The notes beneath the pieces were generated by a model, which searched no databases, was not told where the DNA came from, and saw only the letters and a program-made list of their open reading frames with translations. Position numbers and translations under genes: made by a program. DNA of 64,000 nucleotides from Ornithinimicrobium sp. INDO-MA30-4 (lineage in GTDB: Bacteria; Actinomycetota; Actinomycetes; Actinomycetales; Dermatophilaceae), in the NCBI RefSeq assembly GCF_021535045.1, contig NZ_CP091056.1, positions 2,480,001 to 2,544,000 of the forward strand, in the 5' to 3' direction. Shown piece by piece: positions 35,995 through 55,485 of this stretch. Position 1 is the stretch's first letter. Every line of letters starts with the position of its first letter.

Positions 35995-37252
35995 CTAATC
36001 TTTAGCGTCAGCTGGGCTATTTCCGCTGGTCCCGTCACTGCCGTTGAGCACCCCGAGGCGTCGAGCCACCGGGATTTGGGTCCATCCTTGAAGTAAGACC
36101 GAAGCAACAACAACAAAGAAGACGACGCTAAAGAGGTCGCTTGCTGCGGCAACACCCACGGTGGCCGGGAAGGTCGCCAGCACAATAGGCACGGCGCCCT
36201 TGAGGCCCGCCCACGAGACATACCCCATCTCTTTGCGGTCGAAGCCAAGGGGCCAGGCAAAGGAAAGCGCTGGCGGGTCGGCCGACGAACATCAAGACGA
36301 CTGCAACAGCAATGCCAACCGGCGCTACGTCAATCAGATCCGAGGGGAAGATCAGCAACCCCATCGTCAAGAACATCGCGATCTGCGCAAGCCATGCCAG
36401 GGCATCGTTGGACTGGATGATGACGGTTCTGCCCGCCGTGACCCGGTTGCCGATCAAGAGACCGCAGACGTAGACCGCCAAGAAGCCATTGCCGGTCACC
36501 AACTCGGCCAAGCCGTAGGCGGATAGACCGAAGGCAAGCGCAAGCACGGGATAAAGGCCGGACGCACCAAGCCTCACTCGATCGATAGCCAGTGCGCCAA
36601 CTACGCCGACTGCCCACCCCACGCCGACGCCCAGCAGCAACCCGGTGGCTAACCCAAAGAGTGCTGCGCCAGGCCCTGCCGTCTGAAAGGTAATCAAGCC
36701 CAGCAGCGTCGTGGTCAGGATGACTGCCATCGGGTCGTTAGTGCCCGATTCGAGCTCGATGAGAGCGCGTATGCGCGGGCGGGGCAATGGACCACCGCCG
36801 CGAAAGAGCGTGAAGATTGCGGCGGCGTCCGTGGAAGCCACGATGGCCCCGAGCAGCAAGCCTTCTGGCCAACTCAGGCCGTCTTGGCCCAGGCTGAACT
36901 CCGTGAACGAGGCAAGCAGCCACCACGCGGTCGTGCCGACGATCAAGGTGGTGATCAGCACGCCGACGGTCGACAGCACTAGGCCGGGCGTTAGCACCGG
37001 GCGGACCGTTGACCATTCCGTGTCGAGTCCGCCGCTGAAGAGGATGAGGACGAGCGCGACCGTCCCGATGGCTTGGGCTAAGACGGGGGAGTCGAACGCG
37101 ACACCGCCTGGGCCCTCGGAGCCGACCAGCATGCCAAGGCCGAGAAACAACAGCAGGGCCGGGACTTTAAGGCCCTCAGAGAGCCGGGCGGCCGCCACGG
37201 AAATGAGCAGCAGCAATCCCACGAGCAGGATCGCGAGCGTTGTAGGTGGCAT
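35995..37252 (-). CDS. CPA1-family K+ or Na+/H+ antiporter (frameshifted)
   Basis: Monovalent cation:proton antiporter of the NhaP/CvrA type, about 418 residues with roughly 12 helices. Clear family segments: LILFSGGLDTEWSTVRPVL, GAIVASTDAAAIFTLFRGGG and ALIELESGTNDPMAVILTTT (ion-binding Asp in the ESGxNDP motif). One base is missing near 36250, after which the C-terminal GYVSWAGLKGAVPIVLATFP, typical of helix 11, is in the other frame. Ends ...SPADAKD. The cation is not predictable. Confidence 0.87.
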
Positions 37253-38724: not shown

Positions 38725-39051
38725 ATGGTCGCCCTGGCCTCGGTGACCCTCAACACCTCTGTTGTGCGGTCGGTCCCTGCCGCTCGGTCACGCCAGACCA
38801 AGACGGTCAAGCGCCGCCTGACGAACAGCGACCACGCCCGCATGGTCGAGCTGTACGAAGCAGGTGACAACGCTCAGTCCGTGGCCGAGCAAGTCGGAGT
38901 CGCCAAGTCCACAGTCCTCCGAACCCTGAAGGCTCGGGGAGTGCAGGTTCGCCCGCGGGGACTGCACTACCAGACGGCGCTGCCCAGAATTACAGAACGA
39001 GTTGCGCTTTGGCACGAGCCAGACCCAAGGCAAAGCGAGGTGTCGGCTTAG
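38725..39051 (+). CDS. Helix-turn-helix protein, possibly a serine-recombinase C-terminal remnant
   Basis: About 108 residues from ATG 38725, which coincides with the right IS end. The centre reads KRRLTNSDHARMVELYEAGD, NAQSVAEQVGVAKSTVLRTL, KARGVQVRPRG. This resembles the HTH that ends some site-specific serine recombinases and small stand-alone HTH proteins. No catalytic domain is present on either side of the IS, so it may be a 3' fragment cut off by the insertion. The start codon may be fortuitous. Confidence 0.5.
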   Translation: MVALASVTLNTSVVRSVPAARSRQTKTVKRRLTNSDHARMVELYEAGDNAQSVAEQVGVAKSTVLRTLKARGVQVRPRGLHYQTALPRITERVALWHEPDPRQSEVSA

Positions 39052-39890
39052 CCGGAAGCGAGTCCGACGGTTGCCATTATCTCGATCTGCCGAGTCGCGA
39101 GGTCGCTTCCATCTTCCAGAAACCGAACCATGGCATCCTCCGCCGCCCAGCAGGACCAACAGAGAAGAAGTGCAGTCTCAGTCCAAGACACCGGGCGGGG
39201 CGCGGCCGGGACAGGCTGTCCGGACCGTGCTGCCTCGAATATGTACGGTGTCGCACTGGCAATTGCAGCATGCGTTGCTTCGCTGAGTTGGCTGTAAACA
39301 GTGTGCAGGTGTCGTCCGTTGGGCAACCCATCGAACAACCCCTTCGTGGTCCCGAGATTCGGGTACTCCTTACTGCGACTCACGGCGGAGTCGGCGTGAC
39401 TGCTGGCCGCAGCCTGAAGAAGGGCTGCGTTTTCGCCTCCACCGCTGTCGTCAAGTTCCTGTAGATACGCGAGTTGCCGACCCGACCGCTGCTGTGCTCG
39501 ATAGGCGAGCTCACCGACGAAAGAGCCGATCGTGCCCTCATCTGCGGCCTGCGATAGGCGCTGAAGCGCGATGGCATGCTCGATTGCCACTCTGGCGCTC
39601 GCTTGCGCCTCGACGCTGAAATCGTGCTCAATCAGAATGATGACAGCGCGGGCATGCCTAAAAACGATATGCCGCCAGCCGGCGGCCAGGTACGCAGCGG
39701 TACCGTGCCGCGAATCCAGTGCGCGCTCGTGGACAGAAGATGGAGGTGACACCTGTTCAGATAGGGCAGCGATCAATTGATCTGTTCCGACGCCGTTGCC
39801 AAGAACATCTTCAGGTGGATTTTCCTGCAATGCTCTGATTTCCGATGGGAGGTTTGAGAGAAACGCCGTCCATGCCGACTGGGGGTCCAT
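39048..39890 (-). CDS. Uncharacterised helical protein, DUF5677-like
   Basis: Intact 280 residues, no signal peptide and no confident membrane segment. The middle (AVIILIEHDFSVEAQASARV, AIEHAIALQRLSQAADEGTI) recalls DUF5677/DUF6988-type all-helical proteins with a conserved Arg...Glu pair (here ARVAIEH). The C-terminal half contains THAAIASATPYIFEAAR, also of that style, like the SEATH/SxxxH segments of that group. These families have no known activity. First of three leftward unknown genes in the element cargo. Confidence 0.55.
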   Translation of the reverse strand: MDPQSAWTAFLSNLPSEIRALQENPPEDVLGNGVGTDQLIAALSEQVSPPSSVHERALDSRHGTAAYLAAGWRHIVFRHARAVIILIEHDFSVEAQASARVAIEHAIALQRLSQAADEGTIGSFVGELAYRAQQRSGRQLAYLQELDDSGGGENAALLQAAASSHADSAVSRSKEYPNLGTTKGLFDGLPNGRHLHTVYSQLSEATHAAIASATPYIFEAARSGQPVPAAPRPVSWTETALLLCWSCWAAEDAMVRFLEDGSDLATRQIEIMATVGLASG

Positions 39891-39969
39891 GTCTGCTAAG
39901 CCTGATACCCGTTTGAGAGCGAAACCTGCGAATCATCTGGACCCAGCTCGTTGCCCAGATCCCACTCGC

Positions 39970-40874
39970 TCATTTCATTGAAACCTCTGCACGGACCCAG
40001 ATCCGCATCGCAATTGAGGTCGCCTCGCTCCGCAGCACTCGAAACCGTGGGTCTTGCCCGGCCAGACCCATTTCCTGCTCCATCTCGACGATGCGAGCCT
40101 GTGGGTAGCGAGGTCGCGCAACGAACGAGACCTCGCGTGCCTTTACGTTACGAGCTTCGGCGTACGCCTCCACCGAATGGGTTTCACCCTCAGTGTGTTC
40201 GCAGTTGATAGCTCCGCAAAGTGAGCACGCGCCTTCGTCGTCGCGATGAATTTGTTTCGAGTAAAACTCACCCATCTGATGGTCGCAGTCCTCGACCAAC
40301 TGGCCGCAAACGGAGCAGCCGAAGTCGCTCACCAGACCAGCAGATACTCCCATCCTCAGGTGAGAGACCTTGATCGGGCAAGCCGTCCAAAATCCGTCAT
40401 CGCGTAGGACAATGGGACAACCTAGAAGCCCCCGTTGCACGAATGCGGCCCGGTGGATCGCTTCATGGGCAGTCTCCCGAAGGGGATGATCTTCAAGGTA
40501 GTTGAGCGCCGCGACGGCCGCTGAGACTGACTTTGTGATGTGCGGCGCAATGGCGCTGATGGTCTTGCGATCCAGTTCCGCAGCAACTGGCCCCACGCGT
40601 CGCGCTTCTCGTTCTGAATCTTCGACCGCAGGCCTTCATCATTCTCCGCCAACTGCTTAGGAGCGATGGGCATTCTTGCGCCGGAAGGACCAAGAACGTT
40701 AAGAACGTGGGCGTAGGCGTCGTCGGCGTCCTTGAGCGATTCGCGTCCGTGGTGATCTAGGTACCGCTCACGGTTAGGCCCGCCGGATGGGGGTATGGGC
40801 CCGGACTTTAAGACGAGGAGCTTGAAACGCGGACCTCTGCTCTTAGGCACCTCGGTCATCTTCTGTCGCGCCAC
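39970..40874 (-). CDS. Uncharacterised protein with Cys/His zinc-finger-like cluster (frameshifted)
   Basis: About 301 residues when a base is restored near 40578 (DAWGPVAAELDRKTI). The N-terminus is basic (MARQKMTEVPKSRGPRFKLL). The C-terminal half has paired metal-ligand-like motifs: CSVCGQLVEDCDHQMGEFY and CSLCGAINCEHTEG, two CxxC...C-x-H units. The very end (FRVLRSEATSIAMRIWVRAE) looks like a beta strand region. No recognised family. It overlaps the upstream gene by 32 bp, suggesting co-translation. Confidence 0.55.
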
Positions 40875-41355
40875 GGCGGAGGATTCTCAGGGCTTCGAGG
40901 ACCTCTGAGCCGCTACCCTCGATCTGCCAATTCCTAAGGGTCCCGGTCTCCGAGATCAGCACCTTGAGTGGCAGCTGCTCCGCTTGTTCTGTGGTCCAAC
41001 CCTGCAGATCTGCGCGGTGCGCGATGAAGAGACTTACCGTCAGAATGAGCCAGTCATTCGCCAGACTTAGGAAGGCGAGCCCCAAAGACCATGTCTCCGG
41101 ATCGACGCCGAACTCTTGAACGTAGTGTCGCCCACCCTCTGGCTGCGAGAACTCAACCGGCAGGTTCTGAAGACGCGCAGCCTTGGGCAGGTAGCGAACG
41201 TTGTCGGGGTAGTAGAGCTCGACGCGGTCCCTGGTGTTGCTTCCGCCGGATGTACGAGTGGGGATCACGTAAACTCTGCCGACTTCTGTAGCCTGCGGCA
41301 ATGCACCTTGCAGCGGCTCCCACTGGTCGTTCGAGACTCGGGCTGTCATGGGCAC
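40843..41355 (-). CDS. Uncharacterised 170-residue protein
   Basis: Intact. N-terminus MPMTARVSNDQWEPLQGALP. A mixed region (GRHYVQEFGVDPETWS) is followed by a hydrophobic helix LGLAFLSLANDWLILTVSLF, which could be a buried helix rather than a membrane anchor. The C-terminus (LKVLISETGTLRNWQIEGSG, SEVLEALRILRRG) is helical. Likely forms a unit with the zinc-finger-like gene it overlaps. No family recognised. Upstream 41356-41599 contains only a weak dyad (AGAGAT/ATCTCT, 41575-41595). Confidence 0.5.
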   Translation of the reverse strand: MPMTARVSNDQWEPLQGALPQATEVGRVYVIPTRTSGGSNTRDRVELYYPDNVRYLPKAARLQNLPVEFSQPEGGRHYVQEFGVDPETWSLGLAFLSLANDWLILTVSLFIAHRADLQGWTTEQAEQLPLKVLISETGTLRNWQIEGSGSEVLEALRILRRGATEDDRGA

Positions 41356-41599: not shown

Positions 41600-42226
41600 T
41601 TACTTTCCACGTGTCTGCGTCATGATACACATGAGGTACGTCCGAAAAGGTCGTGGTCGGCGGTCGAAAAACTCTACTTTGGGCGAGGTCCGGCTGTTCT
41701 CGAAAATTAGGGTCATAGCGGGACCGGTGCAGTCTTTCGCTACAGAATGAATTAACCCGGAGGTTCGACTATAGTGCACACCTGCGGCTATCTGGGTTTC
41801 GCCCACAACTTCTAATGAAACGCCTTGCCGATTGATTTGAAGTGCCTTCGTAGAATCAGAAGAGCCGCAACTGTACTCGGTGAATTCCTGCGTGCCTGAG
41901 CGCTCTTCGTAGATGCGCTCAGACAGTCTGCCGACCAGTACATGGCTCGTGAAGTTCCATCGATGAGTATGCGGGTCCTCAGCAACTCCAGGCAGATCGG
42001 CACTTGGCCACACATGCACGGCTAATTTCGCCCCATTAGCAGCCATTGCAACCGGGAACTTATAGAACCCGTTGCGGTGCTGAACGGGTAGAGACAGCCC
42101 TGACTGTAGGAAATATCCATTCGCGAGCCACGAGCCAATGGCTTCGCGAGCCTCCAATTGAGAATCTAGATCAACGGAACGAAGCGCCGCCGGTAGTTTT
42201 AGCTCGTCAAATTTGTCTTTGAACAT
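41600..42226 (-). CDS. Cupin-like metal-binding protein of the cyclase cluster
   Basis: Intact 208 residues. The centre reads AVHVWPSADLPGVAEDPHTH, RWNFTSHVLVGRLSERIYEE and later GVHYSRTSGLIHSVAKDCTG. The HTH pair plus a later H...H is the pattern of a cupin/double-stranded beta-helix metal site, such as in cysteine-dioxygenase-like proteins. No enzyme class can be fixed. ATG 42226 directly follows the repaired stop of the cyclase gene (TAG-ATG), so the two are likely translated together. Confidence 0.5.
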   Translation of the reverse strand: MFKDKFDELKLPAALRSVDLDSQLEAREAIGSWLANGYFLQSGLSLPVQHRNGFYKFPVAMAANGAKLAVHVWPSADLPGVAEDPHTHRWNFTSHVLVGRLSERIYEERSGTQEFTEYSCGSSDSTKALQINRQGVSLEVVGETQIAAGVHYSRTSGLIHSVAKDCTGPAMTLIFENSRTSPKVEFFDRRPRPFRTYLMCIMTQTRGK

Positions 42227-43581
42227 CTATTTCGCCCACTTCTCGAAGCTGAATATTCTAACTTGGAACTGCGACTCTTTCGAACCAACTTCCAGGAGTC
42301 CCCGCCAAAGCCATCCAAGACCTTCGAAAAGGTGTCATCGACGTCGAGATCAGCATGAACAGCTAGATAGTGCCGTGAGCCATCAGGCGCAAGAAACCAC
42401 TGATCTAAGAACTCCTCTGGCAATCCTTTCTTAGTCGCTAATGCAAGCCCCTGCTCAATTCTAGCCACATCCACAACAGAAGCACCATCAAACGCCGGCC
42501 TTGCGCTCTCGGGGCCAGCGATCCTCCCGAAAGAATATTGTCCACTGACAATAGCTAACCTGGAGCCGACCCTCAAGTCCGGCTCGCGAATTGCTCCATT
42601 GAGCGCGCTAACTGAAGAAAGGACATTCTCCCACTCATGAAGTAGATCGGCTAAGGCGTTCTGCCAAGGGCGCAACGTCCGAGACGGAAAGCCCGCCAGA
42701 AAACCGTCACCCGCCGTTTGAATCTGGGTAGTGCCTGCTCTTCGCGCCATGCGTTCGAAAGCGAGTAATACACTCCCGCGGAAATGTGTTTCAATTTCGT
42801 TGACCGTAAGGTTGAAGGTATGCATGTTCTCGCGCGTGTATTTAAGAACTTTTCCATAGCCAGCTAAATCACCCACCGCTAAGATGCCCTGCTCGTCATA
42901 GTGGAAAGCGCTGCTAGGCACGGAGATACTTGAATCAGATATGCGCGTCCGCTCTCTCGGATCATCTACTAGTCGCTGAATGTTCGTCATGATGGGCTTA
43001 CCCCAGGGCGAACGGTGGCTTCGACCATGTAGCTGGCTAAATAATTCCGGCGAATCTTCGACATCATCGAGCGGCAGAAACACGAAACCGTGCATGGCTT
43101 CAGGATCAGCTATATTCCTGAGGCAGCTCCGATCAATTGATGTGACTAGAAAACGTTCAATTGAGAACGCCTTTACGACGCTGGGTGTTCTTGGTGAGGA
43201 CTTGATTTCAATAAAGCCCGGTATGCGTGTCAGTTCGACATCACGTAGGCCTAGCGTGTATGCCATCTGTTGGACTTCTGCCTCCAAATCGTAATTGTTG
43301 CAGGTTGATTCAATAAGTCGCTTCAGAGACCCAACGGTAGTAGGAGGCGAAAATTTCATCGGCACAGGAATTGCAAAGTTAGGCAGACACCAGTAGCCGA
43401 CGTCTAAAGCCTCGCCTGGGGATCCTATGAGAGGATAACTTGCCTGTTGCATAACCAGGTAGGTGCGCTCGGCGCCTTCCACTCGCACTGCTAGCTCGAG
43501 CGTAGCAAGATGCCAAACCGCCGCCAGCGTGCCATCGAGTAGCTGACTGTCGGGATGGTCAGCTTCGAATATCTGATACAA
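42227..43581 (-). CDS. Divergent class III nucleotide cyclase (Pycsar-type cyclase candidate)
   Basis: About 452 residues; TTG 43581 follows the upstream stop by 3 bp. Residues 1-225 are an unrecognised N-terminal domain. Residues about 232-400 look like a cyclase homology domain: GILAVGDLAGYGKVLKY (first metal Asp, D238), TTQIQTAGDGFLAGFPS (second metal Asp, D292 in GDG), RVGSRLAIVSGQYSFGRIAG, and FDGASVVDVARIEQGLAL (transition-state Arg, R374; the usual Asn is Asp). An A is missing near 42275. The corrected tail reads ESQFQVRIFSFEKWAK and stops next to the cupin start. No membrane or TIR effector domain is seen nearby. The product could be cAMP, cGMP, cCMP or cUMP. Confidence 0.65.
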
Positions 43582-43584
43582 GGG

Positions 43585-44165
43585 TCACTTGACCATATCG
43601 GGCAGTTCGAGCACGTTGCTCGCAAAGGTGCGTCCACGTACAACCGTATCGCGATTGATGGCAATCTCTTCTAGCCGCGACATAGATATCCAAAGGATGG
43701 TGCTTCAGTTGTTGCTCCAATGCTCCGTGCGCTGCGGTACTCGAAACGGTATCCGGTATAGCTATCTGAGGTCTTCGAAAACTTCAGCGAGTAATTGAGG
43801 CCAATTGCATCGCCTAACTCCAGAGTTCCCCGCGGGAAGACGTTGTTGATATGGTCGTTCAGTGCCTGTTGGTATTCATCGCGCTTGTCTGCCAAAAGGG
43901 CATCAAGCGCCTTCTGGACGTCGAGAAGCGTTGATTCAGTGTCGAGGGCTGAGAGTGCTTTCTTTGTGATGGGGTCGCTATCTAGTATAAGTGACGAATA
44001 TGGAAGCATCCACTGTTTCCACGACCCATCAGCGTGGGGATCTACTAGCAACACGTCATCATCGTCATTGGTCACAACGAAAGCGCATGTCAAGGCTACC
44101 CTGCGCGGCGCAGAATCCCCCAAGGCCTTAGTCGTGTCGTCGTCTTTGGTCCACACTGCGTCCAT
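43585..44165 (-). CDS. NUDIX-like protein of the cyclase cluster (frameshifted)
   Basis: About 193 residues. The N-terminal beta strands read ALTCAFVVTNDDDDVLLVDP, HADGSWKQWMLPYSSLI, as in NUDIX-fold openings. The C-terminus reads FWISMSRLEEIAINRDTVVR, GRTFASNVLELPD after restoring one T near 43692, also NUDIX-like. However the canonical G-x5-E-x7-REUxEExGU box is absent; the intervening part is helical (TLLDVQKALDALLADKRDEY). It may be a catalytically inert or sensor NUDIX fold. It lies between the ParB-like gene and the cyclase, 3 bp before the latter. Confidence 0.45.
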
Positions 44166-44216
44166 CTGCTTCCTGTCTAATATGTTGTTGGTATTGTGCG
44201 GCTGACTATTCCTAAT

Positions 44217-44801
44217 CTATATGTGCGAAGCGAGCCCGTCAATAGTTGAGGCGGAGATGCGGTGTCCGGGACGAAAGAACTGTGGATCGAACGCATCCAT
44301 CAGATTCGGCAGGGAACCGTGTTGTCTACGCTGCTGCATATCACCAATAGCAAGACACGCAGCGGGAGGAGGTTGAGATGAGGAAGTGATTACCGTCCAC
44401 ACGGTGACTTGTTTGGCTGAAGAGGTCATGGCGGCGCGTAGTCTATGAAGTCCGTCTACGACCATGATGCCATCGCGAGTCTGCTCGCAGATGGGTCCGC
44501 AATGCATAGAACTGCCTATTGTTGCAGAGGCTGATGTCTGACTTCTGGGTTCTTGTCTGACACGCACTGGACGAAAGTACTCGATATTCGACTCTAGGTA
44601 GTAGCCCGCATATTCCTGCGCGCTTCTGAGTCGATCCATCGTGTAGCTTGACACGGGAGTCAATAGCACCCGGGGTGACACTGTCTGGAGTTGCGTCTGA
44701 CATGCGCCGCCAATTGGAAAATGGAGTTGGTAGGAAGCCGCCAGAGACTTCGCCATAGCACGAAGTTCATCATCCGCCAGCTGAATCAATGGTCCTGTCA
44801 T
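44217..44801 (-). CDS. ParB/sulfiredoxin-like domain protein of the cyclase cluster
   Basis: Intact 194 residues. GIMVVDGLHRLRAAMTSSAK followed by QVTVWTVI matches the IVDGxHRLxAA...VPVxVV box of ParB/Srx nucleotide-binding domains (CTPases, DndB-like or phage ParB nucleases). The remainder (NLMDAFDPQFFRPGHRISAS) is not recognisable. ATG overlaps the upstream gene by 4 bp, so the set is co-translated. Confidence 0.55.
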   Translation of the reverse strand: MTGPLIQLADDELRAMAKSLAASYQLHFPIGGACQTQLQTVSPRVLLTPVSSYTMDRLRSAQEYAGYYLESNIEYFRPVRVRQEPRSQTSASATIGSSMHCGPICEQTRDGIMVVDGLHRLRAAMTSSAKQVTVWTVITSSSQPPPAACLAIGDMQQRRQHGSLPNLMDAFDPQFFRPGHRISASTIDGLASHI

Positions 44802-45811
44802 TCCTTGCCACCGTAGACCGTGTCTGCCAAATGTTGAGCCGCGACTTGAAGTGCTCTGCTGGTTTGATCAGGTAGTGGTCTCGCCTCAAGAATCTGAGCT
44901 CGCATAAGGCGGTAGAGAGCATCGAAATATTGTCCGGATCGAATGCTCTTCTTGGCCTTAACTATTAGCGCCCACCGGTCGACTGTGCCGTCAGTAGGGG
45001 TAGTTGGCATCCACGTGGGATTTTGTAACACTCCCGTATAGTCGAACAGAATTCTATTTTTAGACCGATGCCGGTTCGGCGCAAACCTAGTAGTGTTAAA
45101 GAAGATGTCAAGGTGGAGGTTTGAGGGTTCGAGACGAACGTTGATGCCCATCCCGTATCCGTCCACAAGTCTTGGCTTCCCGGCTAAGAAGTCTGTCGCC
45201 AGCCAGGATTGAAGTGTTTGGAGCTCGCCTGAAGCGAGTTCCACGAAGACTGGATCGCTACAAATGACGAACAGGTCTACGTCAGAGTCCGTCTGTGGCT
45301 TACCGGCTCCGTGTGACCCGCCCAGGGCTAGCCCTAGTATGCCGTGCTGCTCCGCTCCGCGATCGAAGATTTGACTGACTATGGGTGGGAGATCATTCAT
45401 TGAATCTTCCCTATCACGAAGCGCGCTTCGTTTGCTGACCTGCCGGCATCCCACTGGAGGGCTGGTGGTTTCTGCGCAGGCGCGGTTATCATTGCCATTC
45501 AGCTTGTCTTTTAAAAGTCTGAGTGCCACACCACGACGTCGTATGGTGTTTTCGCTGTAGCCTCGGCGGCGAAGCAAGATCGTGTATTGGCGGACGTCCT
45601 TATCGGATATAGCGAAAACGTCCTTCTCTTGCTTGACTGCCCACTCAAACCAATCCTGGATATCCCCCCAGTACGCGCGCGCAGTGTTGTAGCCATAGTC
45701 AAGCAAGAGGTCCTCGCGTAGGTCGAAGAACCGTTGCCACGACTCGGGGATCTCGTCCGGGTAGGCAGGCGCGAAGTCCATCTCGCTTTCCGGATACCTG
45801 CTACCCCTCAT
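44798..45811 (-). CDS. Nucleotidyltransferase with N-terminal recombinase core-binding-like domain
   Basis: Open frame of 337 codons with two unrelated parts. Residues 10-105 (ESWQRFFDLREDLLLDYGYN, TARAYWGDIQDWFEWAVKQE, IRRRGVALRLLKDKL) look like the SAM-like core-binding domain of tyrosine recombinases, with no catalytic domain. From about residue 138 (internal ATG 45400, MNDLPPIVSQIF) follows a minimal nucleotidyltransferase fold: LGLALGGSHGAGKPQTDSDV, DLFVICSDP carrying GS...DxD. It may be a true fusion or two genes read through. First gene of the five-gene cluster; the start region faces the transfer module. Confidence 0.6.
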   Translation of the reverse strand: MRGSRYPESEMDFAPAYPDEIPESWQRFFDLREDLLLDYGYNTARAYWGDIQDWFEWAVKQEKDVFAISDKDVRQYTILLRRRGYSENTIRRRGVALRLLKDKLNGNDNRACAETTSPPVGCRQVSKRSALRDREDSMNDLPPIVSQIFDRGAEQHGILGLALGGSHGAGKPQTDSDVDLFVICSDPVFVELASGELQTLQSWLATDFLAGKPRLVDGYGMGINVRLEPSNLHLDIFFNTTRFAPNRHRSKNRILFDYTGVLQNPTWMPTTPTDGTVDRWALIVKAKKSIRSGQYFDALYRLMRAQILEARPLPDQTSRALQVAAQHLADTVYGGKE

Positions 45812-47161: not shown

Positions 47162-49327
47162 TCTCGCTCATATCGGTTCGTTCACCTGGACACGTCTGTC
47201 GCTGCCTGCGCCAGTCACGCCCGAGACCACCAAGCCGCCTTGCAAGCACTGGCTGGACTGAACGGTCAGCCCCGCGTCGTCCTCGAAGCCGAGGGCAACG
47301 CGGGCGTGATCTCGTGGCGCTTAGGTGCTGACCGCGCGGTGATACCTCGCATCCTTGCCGCCCTACAGGTGGTGCTCCTGGCCTGCGCACAGCAAACGAA
47401 CGCAGCGCGCCAACGGCATCAATGTTGCAGGCAGCCGGAGTTCACCTACCGGGACATCGGCAGCGTCCGGTGCAATCGGATCACATCGAGCCCGTCGCCC
47501 GTGCCGTACTCGGTGCGCTGTCGCAGGCATCTCGCAATGAGCGAGTTCGGCTGCAGGTGATCCTTGGCCCACGACGTCGGCCACGTCGCTTGAGGGATAT
47601 TGAGCCGGACATTCGCCGTGACGCACGGGCCAGGTACGCCCAGTACCGCTTCGGTGCAGTCTTCGTATCGCTGCCAGTGCGGCGACTACGGAACGGACGA
47701 GTCGTCTCGTAGATGGCGTAGCTGCCGCACTACGTGGCCTCGAAACGCCCGGTGCCCGTTTGGCTCTGCGACGTGCATCGACAGGTTCTTTCGACACCGC
47801 TCGGTCGCCCTATCTCTGGCCACTCGAACTCTCGATTGACGAACTCGTCCCGATGCTCGGCTGGCCCGTTGCGTCGAAACCAGACGTCGAACTGCCTGGC
47901 GTGCCTTCGCGACATCCTGTGCAATTAGTCGCAACCAGTGAAGTGCCGAAAACGGGACTTCGTGTCGGCCTCAGTTCGCTCGATGCCACGCGCCCTGTCG
48001 CGATCAAGCCAGTCGATCTCTTGCGGCATCTCCATCTGCTGGGGCCGACCGGTGTCGGTAAGTCCACCGTCATGGGCAACCTGGCGCTCCAAGTCATCGA
48101 GGCCGGACACGGCGCGGTCGTGATCGACCCGAAAGGCGACCTCGTGACAGACCTACTCGGTCGCATCCCCGCATCCCGACGCGACGATGTGGTGGTCATC
48201 GATCCAACGGACCCGTCCCCAGTCGGTTTGGCAGCACTCACTCCACAAGGCCATGTAAGCGCCGATCTGTTGGCGGACACGGTGCTAGGGATCATCCACT
48301 CACTGCATGCCAAGTCCTGGGGCCCACGCACTCACGACATCCTGCACGCCAGTCTGCTGACCCTCGCCCGACGAGGCGATGCATCGCTGGTGATGGTGCC
48401 GTTACTGCTGACGAACTCCGGCTTCCGGCGATCAGTGACTCAGCACGCTGCGAAGGCGGACCCACTCGGTCTGGGCTCGTTCTGGGGCTGGTACGCAGGG
48501 CTCAGCGCTGCCGAACGTGAGCACGCGATCGCACCTCTGATGAACAAGCTACGACCCATCTTGCTCCGCCCTGGTATGCGCGCTGTCCTTGGTCAACGCC
48601 GTCCGCGCTTCGACCTCAGCGATGTCTTTACCAAGCGACGCGTAGTCCTTGTTTCGCTCAGCAAAGGCACCATGGGCCCGGAGGCGGCACAGTTACTGGG
48701 ATCACTCGTCGTCGGACTGCTCTGGCAGGCCGCGCTCGGTCGCGCCGCCGTGCCGCAGAGCCAGCGCCGCCCGTCGTACGTGTTTATCGACGAAGTGCAG
48801 GAATACCTGCGGCTCCCTGGCGACCTATCGGATGCACTGGCTCAGGCTCGTGGCCTCGGCGTCGGATTCGTCCTGGCGCACCAACACCTCGGCAACTCTC
48901 GACACCGGTCCGTGAAGCAGTGCTGGCCAATGCCCGCTCCCGCGTCGCGTTTCAGCTATCGGCCAAAGACGCCCGCGACCTGACCACCAAGACCGGCCTA
49001 GTAGCGCCTGAGGACTTCGCGGCACTTCCCAAATTCGGTGCATACGCCCAACTGCATGTAGACGGCACGCAAGCGCCGTGGTGTTCGCTGGTGACGCAGC
49101 CGCTACCCGCCGCGACTCAGACTGTGGCTGCCATTAAAGAACGTTCACGACAGCGATACGGGCAGCCCCTCGACGAAGTTGAACGCGAACTGGAAAGCCT
49201 CATTGATATACCGCAACCCCCTCGGGCAACCCACTGGGACGAACCTCGCGGCGAGCCAGTTCGACAACAGATGGCCCCAATTCTGGAGCCCGGCCATGAG
49301 TCGGCGCGTCGCCTACATCCCAGGTGA
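47154..49327 (+). CDS. VirD4/TraG-like coupling ATPase (TraM recognition type, multiply frameshifted)
   Basis: Large P-loop ATPase likely to deliver the relaxase-DNA complex for transfer. N-terminus MIDLAHIGSFTWTRLSLPAP then AALQALAGLNGQPRVVLEAEGN in the next frame. The ATPase core reads LLRHLHLLGPTGVGKSTVMG (Walker A), GHGAVVIDPKGDLVTDLLGR, RRVVLVSLSKGTMGPEAAQL, and PSYVFIDEVQEYLRLPGDLS (Walker B). It ends with a TraM-recognition-like FVLAHQHLGQL and REAVLANARSRVAFQLSAKD. Losses near 47235, 47375-47420, 47700 and 48897 split it. About 725 residues. Membrane helices are not obvious. Confidence 0.78.
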
Positions 49328-50255
49328 GGGGCTGCCGCTCGGCATTCCGTCCGAACAGCAACACGAATCGGCATCGTCACAGGTCAACGGCTCAGAAGCC
49401 GATATACGGGGGACGAATACTCCGCCTCTCCGGAGTCCGCTACACCCGAACGTGAGGCACAGCAACGCCGCGTCAGTCGTAAACGTCTAGGCTCACTTAT
49501 TGAACAGATGGTCGACCGTGACCATCAGGTCCTGCGCACCATTGCTGAGCACCGCTTCGTAACATCAATCCAACTTCAGCACCTGATCTTCACGACGCAC
49601 AACAGCGACGCCTCCGCAGCACGCACAACCCGCCGCGTGCTGTCACGGCTAGAACGCTGGTCACTCATCCGCCAACTGGATCGACGTGTGGGTGGCGCTA
49701 TCGGCGGCTCCTCACCACGGGTCTGGCAACTGGCTCCAGCCGGTGCCCGGTTGGTGGCTCATGACGGCGCAACATACCGAGTCAGCGAGCCCAGCCTGCG
49801 ATTCCTGCGGCACTGTCTGGCCGTCGCAGACGTGCATGTGCTCCTTCAACAGCACCGCGCCATTGAGGCAATCGAAGACGTAAAGGTAGAGGTTGAACCG
49901 CAGTCGTGGCGACGCTTCACCGGCCTCGGTGGCGAGCCGCGCTGGTTGCAACCTGACCTGGCGGGGACCGTTCTGACCGCTGACTACGAGGACCGCTGGT
50001 TCATCGAGGTGGACCTGGGCACCGAAAGCCTGCCCGTATTGCTCCGCAAGTGTGGCCACTACGCGGACTACCGAGCCAGTGGTCAGGAGCAAGACCGCCA
50101 CGCCAGTTTCCTCTAGTGCTGTGGCTCTTCACGGATCAGCGCCGAGCCGCCAACCGAGAGCTGCTGTCGCCAGAACGCCGCGACTTACGCCCGAGTTGTA
50201 CCGGTTCGCCACACCCAGCACCATCGCTGAAGTCCTGAGCGGAAGCGCATCATGA
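49296..50255 (+). CDS. Replication-relaxase family protein (frameshifted)
   Basis: Predicted winged-helix relaxase/replication initiator of actinobacterial mobile elements. ATG 49296 overlaps the ATPase end. N-terminal segment SRRVAYIPGEGLPLGIPSEQ, then after a break near 49420 the core: MVDRDHQVLRTIAEHRFVTS, IQLQHLIF, TRRVLSRLERWSLIRQLDRR, VWQLAPAGARLV (wHTH), then HCLAVADVHVLL, WLQPDLAGTVLTADYEDRWF, IEVDLGTESLPVLLRKCGHY. A break near 50098 leads to FPLVLWLF and LTPELYRFATPSTIAEVL. About 320 residues. Confidence 0.8.
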
Positions 50256-51295
50256 GCCGCCCGACAGACACGCAGATCGAGCGCAACACCACCATGCTCG
50301 GTGACGTCCGTGCCGTGCTGCCCACGCTGCCGACAGGCTCGGTAGACACGGTGGTCACCAGCCCGCCGTACTTCCGGCTCCGCGACTACGCGACCGATAC
50401 CCAGATGGGGCTGGAATCAACGGTCGAGGAATGGGTCCGTGAACTCCGAGACATCAGTCGGGAAATTGGCCGAGTAATCGCCCCACACGGCACGTACTGG
50501 CTCAACCTCGGCGACGCCTACAGCACCCACAGCCGCGAAGGTGCGCCACGAAAGAGCCTGCTGGGCGCACCGGAACATCTACTGCTGGCCCTGATCGATG
50601 ACGGCTGGATCGTGCGCAACAAGATCGTCTGGGCCAAGCCCAACCCGATCCCGAGTAGCGTCACCGACCGCCTGGCCTGCACCTACGAGGTCATCTACCT
50701 GCTGACCCGCTCACCGCGCTACTACTTCGACCTCCACGCCATCCGCGAACCACACAAGTCAAGGCCCGAAACCAAGGGCAGCACCTCGCAGCGACCGGGA
50801 GGACGTGACGACCAGACCCGTCCTGCCTGGTTGGGTCCGAACGCCGACGGCGACCAAGGACTGGCCAGCCTGAAACGGCGAGGGCTGGCTGGTCATCCCT
50901 GGGCAAGAATCCGGGAGATGTCTGGAGGATGGCCACCAGCCGTTACCAAGGGCCCACTTCGCGACCTACCCCGCATCGCTCATCGAGCGCATCCTACGAG
51001 CCGGCTGTCCCGAGAAACGTTGCGTCCAGTGTCGTCATCCCTGGACACGGCCACTTCAGCGACGGGGCGACTCTGCAACCCGTCTGCCTATCCGACCGTC
51101 CTGCGACTGCGACGCCGAGTCAGAGCCGGGGCTAGTGCTCGATCCCTTTTGGGTGCTGGCACCACGGCCTTGGCTGCCGAACGGCAAGGCAAAGACTGGC
51201 TCGGCATCGAACTGAACCCTGACTACATCCGCCTGGCCGACCAGCGGCTGACTGACGAACGAAACACGACACCGAAAGGAGGTGACCATGAATGA
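50252..51295 (+). CDS. DNA N4-cytosine/N6-adenine methyltransferase (frameshifted)
   Basis: Amino-methyltransferase with the SPPY catalytic motif early (TVVTSPPYFRLRDYATD) and the SAM motif late (PFLGAGTTALAAERQGKDWL), the beta-class order. TYWLNLGDAY, DDGWIVRNKIVWAKPNPIPS and YYFDLHAIREPH are typical. Breaks near 50900 and 51147 compensate each other; the repaired middle reads GHPLGKNPGDVWRMATSRYQ, YPASLIERILRAGCPEKRCV with a Cys-rich CVQCRHPW insertion. No cognate restriction nuclease is nearby, so it probably protects the element DNA. Confidence 0.87.
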   Translation: MSRPTDTQIERNTTMLGDVRAVLPTLPTGSVDTVVTSPPYFRLRDYATDTQMGLESTVEEWVRELRDISREIGRVIAPHGTYWLNLGDAYSTHSREGAPRKSLLGAPEHLLLALIDDGWIVRNKIVWAKPNPIPSSVTDRLACTYEVIYLLTRSPRYYFDLHAIREPHKSRPETKGSTSQRPGGRDDQTRPAWLGPNADGDQGLASLKRRGLAGHPWARIREMSGGWPPAVTKGPLRDLPRIAHRAHPTSRLSRETLRPVSSSLDTATSATGRLCNPSAYPTVLRLRRRVRAGASARSLLGAGTTALAAERQGKDWLGIELNPDYIRLADQRLTDERNTTPKGGDHE

Positions 51296-52922: not shown

Positions 52923-53596
52923 ATGAACCACTCAACAACACGCCCAACGTCATACGTATCGATCCTTAAACGCGTCCGGGCACTTGCCCCGGTTCGTGAC
53001 TGCACCTTTGCTGAGTCGTTGGTCATCGCCGAGCGTCAAGCCACCCGACTAGCGGCGCTGCTGACGGGTGACGCCAGATCAACCGACGGCATCCAGACGC
53101 ACCACATCGATGGACTACCTCGTATCCGAGTTGTTTTCGAGGCGGCGCTGCCGGTGAGTGGCATGAGCCACTGGAACGGCCAAGAGTGGGTTGTCACCAT
53201 CGCGGGCCGTGACTCACTGGCTCGCCAGCGCTTCACGATGCTGCACGAGTTCAAGCACGTGATCGACCACGGGGCGACGAAGCGGCTGTACCAAAGCACC
53301 AAAAGCAGACCGCCGGACAGCAAGCCGAAATGGCCGCCGATTACTTCGCTGGCTGCGCACTGGTCAGCAAGCGCGACCTCAAACATGCATGGGGCTGTGG
53401 CATCCAGCGACCGGCCGACCTGGCTGCCCACTTCAACGTCAGCGAACCCGCCATCCGCGTCCGACTGGCGCAAACCGGCCTCGATGTCATCGCTGATAGC
53501 AAACCGGTTAGCAGATGCGCTCGACCAGTTCGAACGCCAAGGAACGAAGCGCAGATCTTCCGCTACGCACCACCTCACCGAAGGAGTTACGCATGA
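52923..53596 (+). CDS. ImmA/IrrE family metallopeptidase (frameshifted)
   Basis: Zn-dependent anti-repressor peptidase. ATG 52923 with AAAGGAGG upstream. The active site RFTMLHEFKHVIDHG holds HExxH (His-Glu-Phe-Lys-His). A base is missing near 53308; the repaired part reads AEMAADYFAGCALVSKRDLK, HAWGCGIQRPADLAAHFNVS, EPAIRVRLAQTGL, then ends at 53596. Its stop overlaps the recombinase start (ATGA). Probably cleaves the XRE repressor encoded upstream. Confidence 0.85.
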
Positions 53597-55318
53597 GCAC
53601 AGCCGCAACCGAGACCGCCATCTTGCCGATGGCTGTTGTCTATCTGCGCGTCAGCACCAGGGAGCAAGCCGAGCGCGGCGGTGAGGTCGAAGGCTTCTCC
53701 ATCCCCGCTCAGCGGGAGGCGTGTGTCCGTAAAGCCGAAGCACTCGGCGTGCAAGTAGTGGCCCAATTTGTCGACGCCGGTGAGAGCGCCCGCTCAGCTA
53801 ACCGTCCTCAACTCAAGGCCATGCTCGACTTCGTCACCGAGCACCGCGTCAAGTATGTCATCGTCCACAAGGTCGACCGATTGGCCCGCAACCGTGTCGA
53901 TGACGTCGAGATCAATCTGCAAATCACGACGGCAGGTGCCCAGTTGGTCAGTTGCTCAGAGAACATCGACGAGACGCCGAGCGGAATGCTGCTGCACGGC
54001 ATCATGAGTTCGATCGCTGAGTTCTACAGCCAAAACTTGGGCACCGAAGCCAAGAAAGGAATGCTGCAAAAGCCAAGAGCGGTGGCACCCCCAGCAAAGC
54101 GCCGTTCGGCTACATGAACACTCGTGAGCGCACCGACGAAGGCCGCGAAGTGCGGACGATCACGAATGACCCCGAGCGAGCGCACTGGGTGCCGTGGATC
54201 TTCGACAAGTACGCCAGTGGAGACTGGACCGTCGTCGCCATCCGTGATGAGTTGAACCGCAACGGTGTCAGCACATTGCCCACACCCAAGAGGGGAGCCA
54301 GCCGATAGCCATCTCCCACGTCCACAACATCTTGAAGAACCGCTACTACGTAGGGGTCGTGACGTTCGAAGGCGTGGAGTACAAGGGTAAGCATCAAGCG
54401 CTCGTCAGCGAAGAGTTGTATAAAACCGTTCAGCGCATCCGGGCCGAGCGTTACCAGAGCGGCGACAAGCCTCGCGTCCACACCACGTACATGAAGGGAT
54501 CGATCTTCTGCGGCCAATGTGGTCATGGGCTCTCGTTCGAGAAGTCGCGAAAGTCAAGGGTGACCTATACGAGTACTTCTATTGCCTCGGTCGTCAAGGC
54601 CACAAGAACGGCTGCACCTTCCGTGCCACGCAAGTTCACGTCGTTGAGCAGCTGATCGAGGACTACTGGCAGACCGTCACGCTGACGGAGCACGCCGTTT
54701 CGGAGATCCGGCGGTTGACGCTGGAGCACATCGATCTTGTCCTGCCGAAGATGAGCGATGACCGGTTGGCGGCTGAGGCCGAACTGACGACATTGAACGA
54801 GCAGAGCCATAAACTCATGACGGCACACTATGCCGACGCCATCTCGTTGCCAGACCTGAAACGCGAGCAAGCCACCATCGCGACCAGACGGGCGCTCGCA
54901 GAGCAGCGCATCGCAAGGGCGAATACCGATTCTGACCTGGTGCGGGCCAAGTTGGCTATCGCTTGTGAACTCTTGACGCGTGCGCATGAGCAGTACGTCG
55001 GCGCACCGGACAACCTGCGACGCACACTCAACCGGGCTGTCTTTGAGCACATCTACATCGACGAAGACGGCGTGACTGGAAGTGACCTGACTGAGCCATT
55101 CCAACGACTCATGTCTGACTCGCTGGCCGACGATCTCAGGGTCGAACGGCGACGACACCAAACCAGTCGCACTAGAACTTCTACCCTGCGTGTCGTATCA
55201 GGGGTCACAGCGAGCATGTCCAGGGGTGAGTATCGACCTCATGGAGATCCACCCGGGTCATCCTTCCAAACGTCTTCGGACACCCGGAGGACACGCTTTG
55301 GGACGCATTCACGCGTAA
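53593..55318 (+). CDS. Large serine recombinase (element integrase, frameshifted)
   Basis: Site-specific recombinase for integration and excision. The N-terminal resolvase domain reads MAVVYLRVSTREQAERGGEV (nucleophile Ser), HKVDRLARNRVDDVEINLQI. The recombinase domain reads TPSKAPFGYMNTRERTDEGR and SHVHNILKNRYYVGVVTFEG. The zinc ribbon has CGQCGHGL...CLGRQGHKNGC. A long coiled-coil follows (DDRLAAEAELTTLNEQSHKL). Breaks near 54080, 54303 and 54560. The 3' end is uncertain: the frame as sequenced runs on through the antisense tRNA (GFEPATSSSRTTRATKLRHT, a known type of artefact), while a frame ending ALGRIHA stops at 55318. Start overlaps immA. Confidence 0.85.

Positions 55319-55408: not shown

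Positions 55409-55485
<77 letters not shown>

Follow-up and report, generated by a model that had tools for sequence, protein, structure and literature searches.

Pycsar systems consist, as introduced in PMC11224242, of a cyclase and a receptor-effector, and the introduction of that paper is silent on what switches the cyclase on. Here I describe a cassette of five genes around a probable class III nucleotide cyclase in a 64,000-nucleotide stretch of Ornithinimicrobium sp. INDO-MA30-4 (contig NZ_CP091056.1, positions 2,480,001 to 2,544,000). This stretch is hereafter the 64-kilobase (kb) window, and its positions serve as coordinates throughout. Like Pycsar, the window copy has a class III-type cyclase with both metal Asp residues, and a distant relative of the cassette in genome G409, from another family of the same class, has a match to the PycC cyclase model and a PycTM effector, beside other defence genes. 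Unlike Pycsar, the cassette adds a nucleotidyltransferase, a ParB-like protein, a third conserved protein and a cupin-like protein; its cyclase has an extra N-terminal domain and lacks the Asn; and the window copy itself has neither a PycTM nor a PycC match. On these sequence comparisons, the reading that I favour, with moderate confidence, is a signalling cassette against phage that resembles Pycsar, with conserved accessory proteins added. A preliminary description of the same DNA had proposed that a divergent class III cyclase forms the centre of a defence cassette working through a nucleotide messenger, and this proposal gains independent support from the PycTM of G409, the PycC match and the BREX neighbours there. 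As to the unfamiliar effector that it envisaged, nothing in the window copy could be assigned to a known type of effector.

The five open reading frames (ORFs) lie on the minus strand at 45811-44798, 44801-44217, 44165-43671, 43581-42199 and 42226-41600. Their features are as follows.

41600..42226, minus strand: cupin-like protein (P0004) with a PHTHRWNF motif; phrog_4786 'cysteine dioxygenase' at 3e-4; Vibrio and actinobacterial relatives
42199..43581, minus strand: probable divergent class III nucleotide cyclase (P0005), TTG start, with a conserved N-terminal domain of no recognised fold; from hhalign and the G409 homologue
42442..42894, minus strand: catalytic half of the cyclase, residues 230-380; Asp238, Asp292, Gln288, Val370 and Arg374 placed by alignment
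43585..44165, minus strand: third gene, a conserved protein with a G409 homologue (NUDIX-like in the preliminary description); apparent ORF 44165-43671, frame-broken after about 43740
44217..44801, minus strand: ParB/Srx-like protein (VVDGLHRLRAAM); phrog_1033 ParB-like at 0.01 in PHROGs; homologue in G409
44798..45400, minus strand: nucleotidyltransferase of about 200 residues with the GGSHGAGKPQTDSDVDLFV motif; NTP_transf_2 at 0.0016, below the Pfam cut-off; likely start at ATG 45400
45401..45811, minus strand: integrase SAM-like (core-binding) N-terminal stretch of ORF 1 (P0001); Pfam Phage_int_SAM_1 at 5.1e-6, residues 41-98; probably a separate fragment

ORF 1 and the ParB-like gene overlap by 4 base pairs (bp; ATGA), the ParB-like and third genes are 51 bp apart, and the cyclase gene runs 28 bp into the cupin gene. 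The five leftward ORFs and the 44798/44801 overlap given in the preliminary description were thus borne out. The TAG-ATG junction that it placed between cyclase and cupin is an in-frame stop immediately before the cupin ATG, and the two genes actually overlap. The third gene also needs correction: its ORF ends at 43671 on account of the frame break, and the likely natural stop is TGA 43587-43585, 3 bp ahead of the TTG of the cyclase. The guanine-cytosine (GC) content per kb is 0.514-0.553 in the five kilobases from 41 to 46 kb versus 0.576-0.671 elsewhere in the window, in agreement with the lower GC noticed earlier. A scan for coding frames by codon use, for which these ORFs supplied part of the training set, placed the coding signal largely where it was expected; there were short dips, and ORF 1 and the third gene stood out as exceptions. 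Pfam, NCBIfam and PADLOC gave no matches beyond chance level for ORFs 2 to 5. The leftward genes that adjoin the cassette at 39048-41355 encode a DUF5677 protein (3e-7) and three proteins without a Pfam match; GC is 0.595-0.596 at 39-41 kb, above that of the cassette.

It was found that the window enzyme is probably a divergent class III nucleotide cyclase. Taken by itself, its sequence can hardly be recognised as such. Aligned by hhalign to a profile of 30 class III domains from genomes of the phylum, the enzyme scored 31.7; the highest of 200 shuffles was 23.5. In hmmsearch, the cyclase half scored 7.5 bits against class III domains, with 1000 shuffles at 3.7 or below, and pairing the window cyclase with its G409 homologue gave an E value of 5e-6. 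The metal residues Asp238 and Asp292 and also Arg374 are kept, aligned with class III and PycC sequences, as the preliminary description had recognised. I take two further columns to hold the base-contacting Lys and the transition-state Asn. Gln288 fills the Lys column, as Gln does in 2 of 8 ordinary cyclases aligned, and does not settle which nucleotide the product contains. The Asn column holds Val370 in the window cyclase and Thr in G409; Asn is also absent from 1 of the 8 ordinary domains. The Asn-to-Asp change described earlier was not confirmed, since the Asp lies one position further on. PF00211, followed up to E 10, failed to recover the cyclase in its own genome, and a PDB sequence search with the cyclase pair returned an unrelated carveol dehydrogenase as its best match (0.021). 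The entry 1ybt, which I take to be a mycobacterial cyclase although the database entry names it lipJ, came at a non-significant 0.32.

Is the cassette found elsewhere? The five window proteins were searched jointly against 374 genomes of the class, including the window's own. Matches were obtained in 17: the own genome, G409, 12 in the cupin only, and three weakly in the cyclase part (G193, G484 and G544, of which G484 and G544 were compared by model only). Only in G409, one of the 373 other class genomes, do adjacent matches to the ParB-like protein, the third protein and the cyclase occur, with joint-search E values of 1.8e-7, 4.5e-20 and 3.4e-71 (35% identical for the cyclase). In tblastn, with E values for the 64-kb window alone, the ParB-like protein gave 2.5e-12, the third gene 2e-20, the cyclase 2e-71 and the cupin 4e-4. 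The block of ParB-like gene, third gene, cyclase and cupin has the same order and orientation as in the window. For its first three members, the refuting outcome named in the preliminary description, homologues that are always found singly, was thus not observed; relatives of the cupin turn up with many other neighbours as well. The genes of the G409 locus (L141), all in the direction of the cassette, are as follows.

12978-12412: PycTM, 188 residues; PADLOC 8e-33, Pfam 6.3e-12
12345-11335: 336-residue protein; nucleotidyltransferase-like motif by eye
11419-10769: ParB-like protein; start coordinate approximate
10779-10168: third gene, 203 residues, intact; homologue of the window third gene
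10161-8800: cyclase; PADLOC PycC model PDLC00734 at 2.5e-5
8818-8096: cupin; phrog_4784 at 0.0014

The ParB-like and third genes overlap by 11 bp (with the approximate ParB-like start), the third gene and the cyclase are 6 bp apart, and the cyclase and cupin overlap by 19 bp. The PycTM protein is also matched by PADLOC models for 2TM effectors of other systems. The G409 cassette has a GC content of 0.479-0.552 per kb versus 0.597-0.690 around it. In the convergent genes that adjoin it, PADLOC identified BrxC, PglZ, BrxD and BrxHI, and Pfam concurs for BrxC and BrxD. A tRNA-Leu lies at 14663-14578 of L141, about 1.6 kb past the PycTM end of the cassette.

Two plasmid-borne cyclases of Agrobacterium are also matched by the G409 cyclase, 116 residues of which align with the one in L142 at 33.6%. 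L142 was scanned with PADLOC, and the neighbours in L143 were taken from annotation only. At 5383-9896 of L142, PADLOC found PycC, PycC and an E1-E2 ThiF protein, the first PycC also aligning to TIR effector models. Of the relatives compared, this first cyclase scores highest. It differs from the window enzyme in that it aligns N-terminally to the TIR effector models and retains Lys and Asn in the two columns discussed above, and its partners are different, namely the second PycC and the E1-E2 ThiF protein. With CBASS, MntA and HalB the cassette shares a gene with a nucleotidyltransferase motif. This gene, however, scores far below the NCBIfam cut-offs for MntA (0.0016; 18.3 versus 60 bits) and HalB (0.012; 15.2 versus 190 bits), and in PADLOC it gave only weak candidate PDC-S09 matches (best 0.0053).

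What the comparisons establish is the shared gene block, the PycTM and BREX genes that accompany it in G409, and the placement of the window copy in a variable slot; the mechanism is inferred. If the cassette is Pycsar-like, infection would lead the cyclase to make a cyclic mononucleotide. In G409, this messenger would open the PycTM membrane effector, and growth would stop before phage release. The N-terminal domain of the cyclase and the ParB-like, third and cupin proteins may gate the cyclase or sense infection, by analogy with the ancillary proteins of CBASS. The effector of the window copy might be the nucleotidyltransferase or the cupin, might be encoded elsewhere in the genome, or might have been lost, as a search of the 64 kb recovered no PycTM-like sequence.

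Several observations weigh against this interpretation. In the window, the reading frame of the third gene is interrupted. A tblastn search with the G409 PycTM over the 64-kb window found no PycTM-like sequence (best E 0.86), and P0005 has no match to any PADLOC model up to E 10. Both cyclases, of the window and of G409, lack the transition-state Asn. The 336-residue protein of G409 shows no similarity in sequence to the window nucleotidyltransferase and is matched by nothing in Pfam, PADLOC or PHROGs. Of the four homologous pairs, the cupins are related least clearly (4e-4 versus the window alone), and the conserved block is known from two loci. A model of the two cyclase halves speaks for the Pycsar-like reading in that it gave 22.7 bits for the first Agrobacterium PycC (L142, PADLOC 7.6e-117) and at most 14.0 for 30 ordinary class III domains. 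This support is qualified, however: the first PycC was scored at full length and the 30 others as domains, the second Agrobacterium PycC reached 4.9 bits, less than many ordinary cyclases, and L140, an ORF of unknown family, reached 12.4, so that only the first PycC stands clear and the lower scores mean little. For want of a PycC-model match and of a PycTM-like sequence in the 64 kb, and with a broken third gene, I do not file the window copy itself as Pycsar. PADLOC, run on nine window proteins, likewise gave no PycTM or PycTIR effector.

The break in the third gene was examined more closely. In the frame scan, its coding signal is lost after about 43740 and resumes in the cyclase frame ahead of the cyclase start. 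Similarity to the G409 homologue ends at residue 152 of 203, and the C-terminus was recovered in the cyclase frame (RTFASNVLEL versus RTVSSNVLDL in G409, equalled by 3 of 2000 shuffles). Thus, the gene is frame-broken. It was considered whether the third gene and the cyclase could be one gene; this was ruled out, as G409 has a stop and 6 bp between them. A sequencing error is likely, because the coupling protein and the serine recombinase of the surrounding element are also split and the two-contig assembly has a completeness of 74.86%; real decay is the alternative. The NUDIX label given earlier to the third protein found almost no support: against a small Nudix profile built from seven sequences it scored 19.0, with 1 of 60 shuffles higher, the pairing with the G409 homologue gave E 0.51, and Pfam gave no match. 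A NUDIX identity for the N-terminus of the cyclase was rejected too (12.4 against shuffles up to 27.2, E 0.88 with the homologue, no Pfam match). The ParB/Srx-like identity, also from the preliminary description, has a weak profile match to phrog_1033 in the window protein only; Pfam gave no match, and the G409 homologue has no ParB match.

In ORF 1, the coding signal fades around 45550-45410, where the integrase part gives way to the nucleotidyltransferase, and GGGAAG precedes the ATG at 45400. For these reasons, the two parts are probably two units rather than one protein. The nucleotidyltransferase with a recombinase-like N-domain described earlier therefore stands as far as both signatures are concerned, but a single fused protein is unsupported.

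Genes of an integrative element lie beside the cassette, on the plus strand except for the tRNA.

47760..49327, plus strand: type IV coupling protein, broken into two ORFs; TrwB_AAD_bind at 1.9e-11 in the first ORF
49508..50116, plus strand: Replication-relaxation protein; Replic_Relax at 4.6e-42
53515..55200 (end approximate), plus strand: serine recombinase, split over several ORFs; Resolvase at 5.6e-32 in the first ORF, later ORFs by eye
55409..55485, minus strand: tRNA-Pro (cgg) beside the recombinase; possible insertion site

No attachment repeat was identified at the tRNA-Pro. Coupling-protein matches were found in 10 of 198 genomes of the order, the window's own included, and the frame is uninterrupted over 747-801 residues in the five top-ranking matches, which come from four other genomes. 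Genes at 36128-37252, 47760-49327, 50252-51295 and 53515-55200 of the window appear by eye to be split or to have foreign-looking tails, as expected of an assembly with many small insertions or deletions. Related elements were examined in four of the nine other genomes with a coupling-protein match (L118, L120, L121 and L122). All four have the coupling protein and DNA similarity to the window backbone, with other low-GC genes to the left of the coupling protein; one such gene appears by eye to be common to L118 and L122. A comparison with the window DNA between 30 and 57 kb gave no match to the cassette in the four elements, and P0001 had no tblastn match in five loci from them. Since the same slot holds other low-GC genes in related elements, without a match to the cassette, the cassette is, judged by these alignments, exchangeable cargo of an integrative element. 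The preliminary description had reached the same placement, and the coupling protein, the Replic_Relax protein, the serine recombinase beside tRNA-Pro and the related elements uphold it.

In the four related elements, the slot opens with a leftward gene for 267-341 residues (L118 12496-13299, L120 10888-11913, L121 9794-10789 and L122 11013-11915), and by eye the products in L118 and L120 have the common motif SPxSMATxPAxxxLLGxGDP. A second slot protein, of lower GC and with a hydrophobic stretch near residue 400, is encoded at 9946-11478 of L118 (510 residues) and 7523-9298 of L120 (591 residues), and a 685-residue low-GC protein comes next in the slot at 6603-8660 of L121. The slot genes of these four elements possibly constitute an undescribed conflict system.

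The cupin belongs to a family wider than the cassette. The preliminary label of cupin-like protein draws some support from the match to phrog_4786, with no Pfam match for the window cupin, and phrog_4784 is matched by both the window cupin (0.0017) and the G409 cupin. HxHR is invariant in 8 aligned cupin sequences; the G409 cupin, outside that set, has HCHC. Relatives were found in 17 of 295 other class genomes and also in Vibrio plasmids, a Vibrio ouci scaffold, a Streptomyces plasmid and one viral contig, with varied partners. Since the family is wider than the cassette and the partners vary, the cupin by itself says little on function.

Various neighbourhoods of cupin relatives were observed. 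In L056, L059, L060, L061, L065, L066, L068 and L070, the cupin relative adjoins a conserved protein of 333-414 residues with N-terminal hydrophobic segments by eye (the L056 copy, the one scanned, has no Pfam match). At 8347-11596 of L058, it lies beside a weak Macro-domain protein (0.0011, below cut-off), with a NUDIX protein and a methyltransferase by eye. In L055, L067 and L069, a radical SAM protein (by Pfam for L067) and the cupin relative lie in one neighbourhood with what by eye is a NUDIX protein, and L067 and L069 have a nucleotide-kinase-like gene nearby. The Vibrio clusters L032 and L033 combine the cupin relative with an annotated dTMP kinase, orotidine-5'-phosphate decarboxylase, acyl carrier protein and adenylation domain. 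By eye, the Vibrio cluster L104 has the same gene content plus a nucleotidyltransferase-like gene (NTP_transf_2 at 0.0024). The cluster of L032, L033 and L104 is perhaps an uncharacterised biosynthetic cluster.

What else could the window cassette be? It may be the decayed or truncated remnant of a once G409-like cassette, in which the PycTM end was replaced by an integrase fragment and the third gene was broken, leaving it non-working. The frame break in the third gene, the lack of a PycTM in the window and the integrase SAM stretch at the position where G409 has other genes all suit this explanation. I nevertheless consider it somewhat unlikely, since the splitting of the coupling protein and the serine recombinase, together with the 74.86% completeness, lets sequencing error fit equally, and the remaining four genes are open. 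It was also considered whether the genes form a nucleotide-tailoring or small-molecule set rather than a defence system, the cupin being an oxygenase-type enzyme and the nucleotidyltransferase and cyclase modifying a nucleotide substrate. The annotations around the Vibrio cupin relatives, and the radical SAM and kinase-like genes near some actinobacterial cupins, would agree with this. The closest full relative, that of G409, has PycTM and adjoins BREX genes, however, and no kinase, radical SAM or acyl carrier protein match was found among the cassette proteins scanned, so that a tailoring set seems quite improbable. Finally, the cyclase messenger could control transfer or maintenance of the integrative element via the ParB-like protein. 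The cargo position and the ParB-like gene are what this regulatory explanation can build on. It is very improbable, given that the slot holds other genes in four related elements, with no cassette DNA match there, and that neither a coupling protein nor a recombinase was seen among the G409 ORFs read in 19.5 kb (ten proteins scanned).

Further relatives were sought in larger collections. Scans of genome contigs, viral contigs, plasmids and phages, which require exact short peptide matches and so detect close relatives only, gave no relative of the window cyclase. With the G409 cyclase, nothing was found in phages, and the matches in plasmids were limited to the two from Agrobacterium. Neither the third gene of G409 nor its 336-residue protein had a relative in plasmids. 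Viral contigs held no relative of the G409 cyclase, the cyclase pair or the third-gene pair. None of 185 other genomes of the family was matched by a joint query of 1226 residues. Searched singly, the ParB-like protein had five weak matches outside its own genome. Three weak cyclase matches besides the window, in 296 genomes of the phylum (own included), were dropped as unrelated ORFs; one of the three, in G150, looks by eye like a glycerol-3-phosphate dehydrogenase. In the literature searched, judged by titles and the openings of abstracts, no paper was titled or introduced as describing such a cassette.

A bolder extension of the Pycsar-like reading, tentative and in my view rather doubtful, is that the cassette represents a distinct class of cyclic-nucleotide immunity. 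Such a class would have an Asn-less cyclase with its own sensor domain, fixed partners (the ParB-like protein, the new conserved protein, the cupin and the nucleotidyltransferase), an exchangeable effector (PycTM in one lineage and another in the window lineage) and possibly a chemically modified messenger. If the Pycsar-like reading itself is true, the extra conserved proteins, including the domain fused to the cyclase, would be candidate sensors or regulators of a Pycsar-type cyclase, and cyclase-based immunity would have an ancillary layer, as CBASS does. The cassette also adds gene families to seek in the defence islands and mobile elements of actinobacteria.

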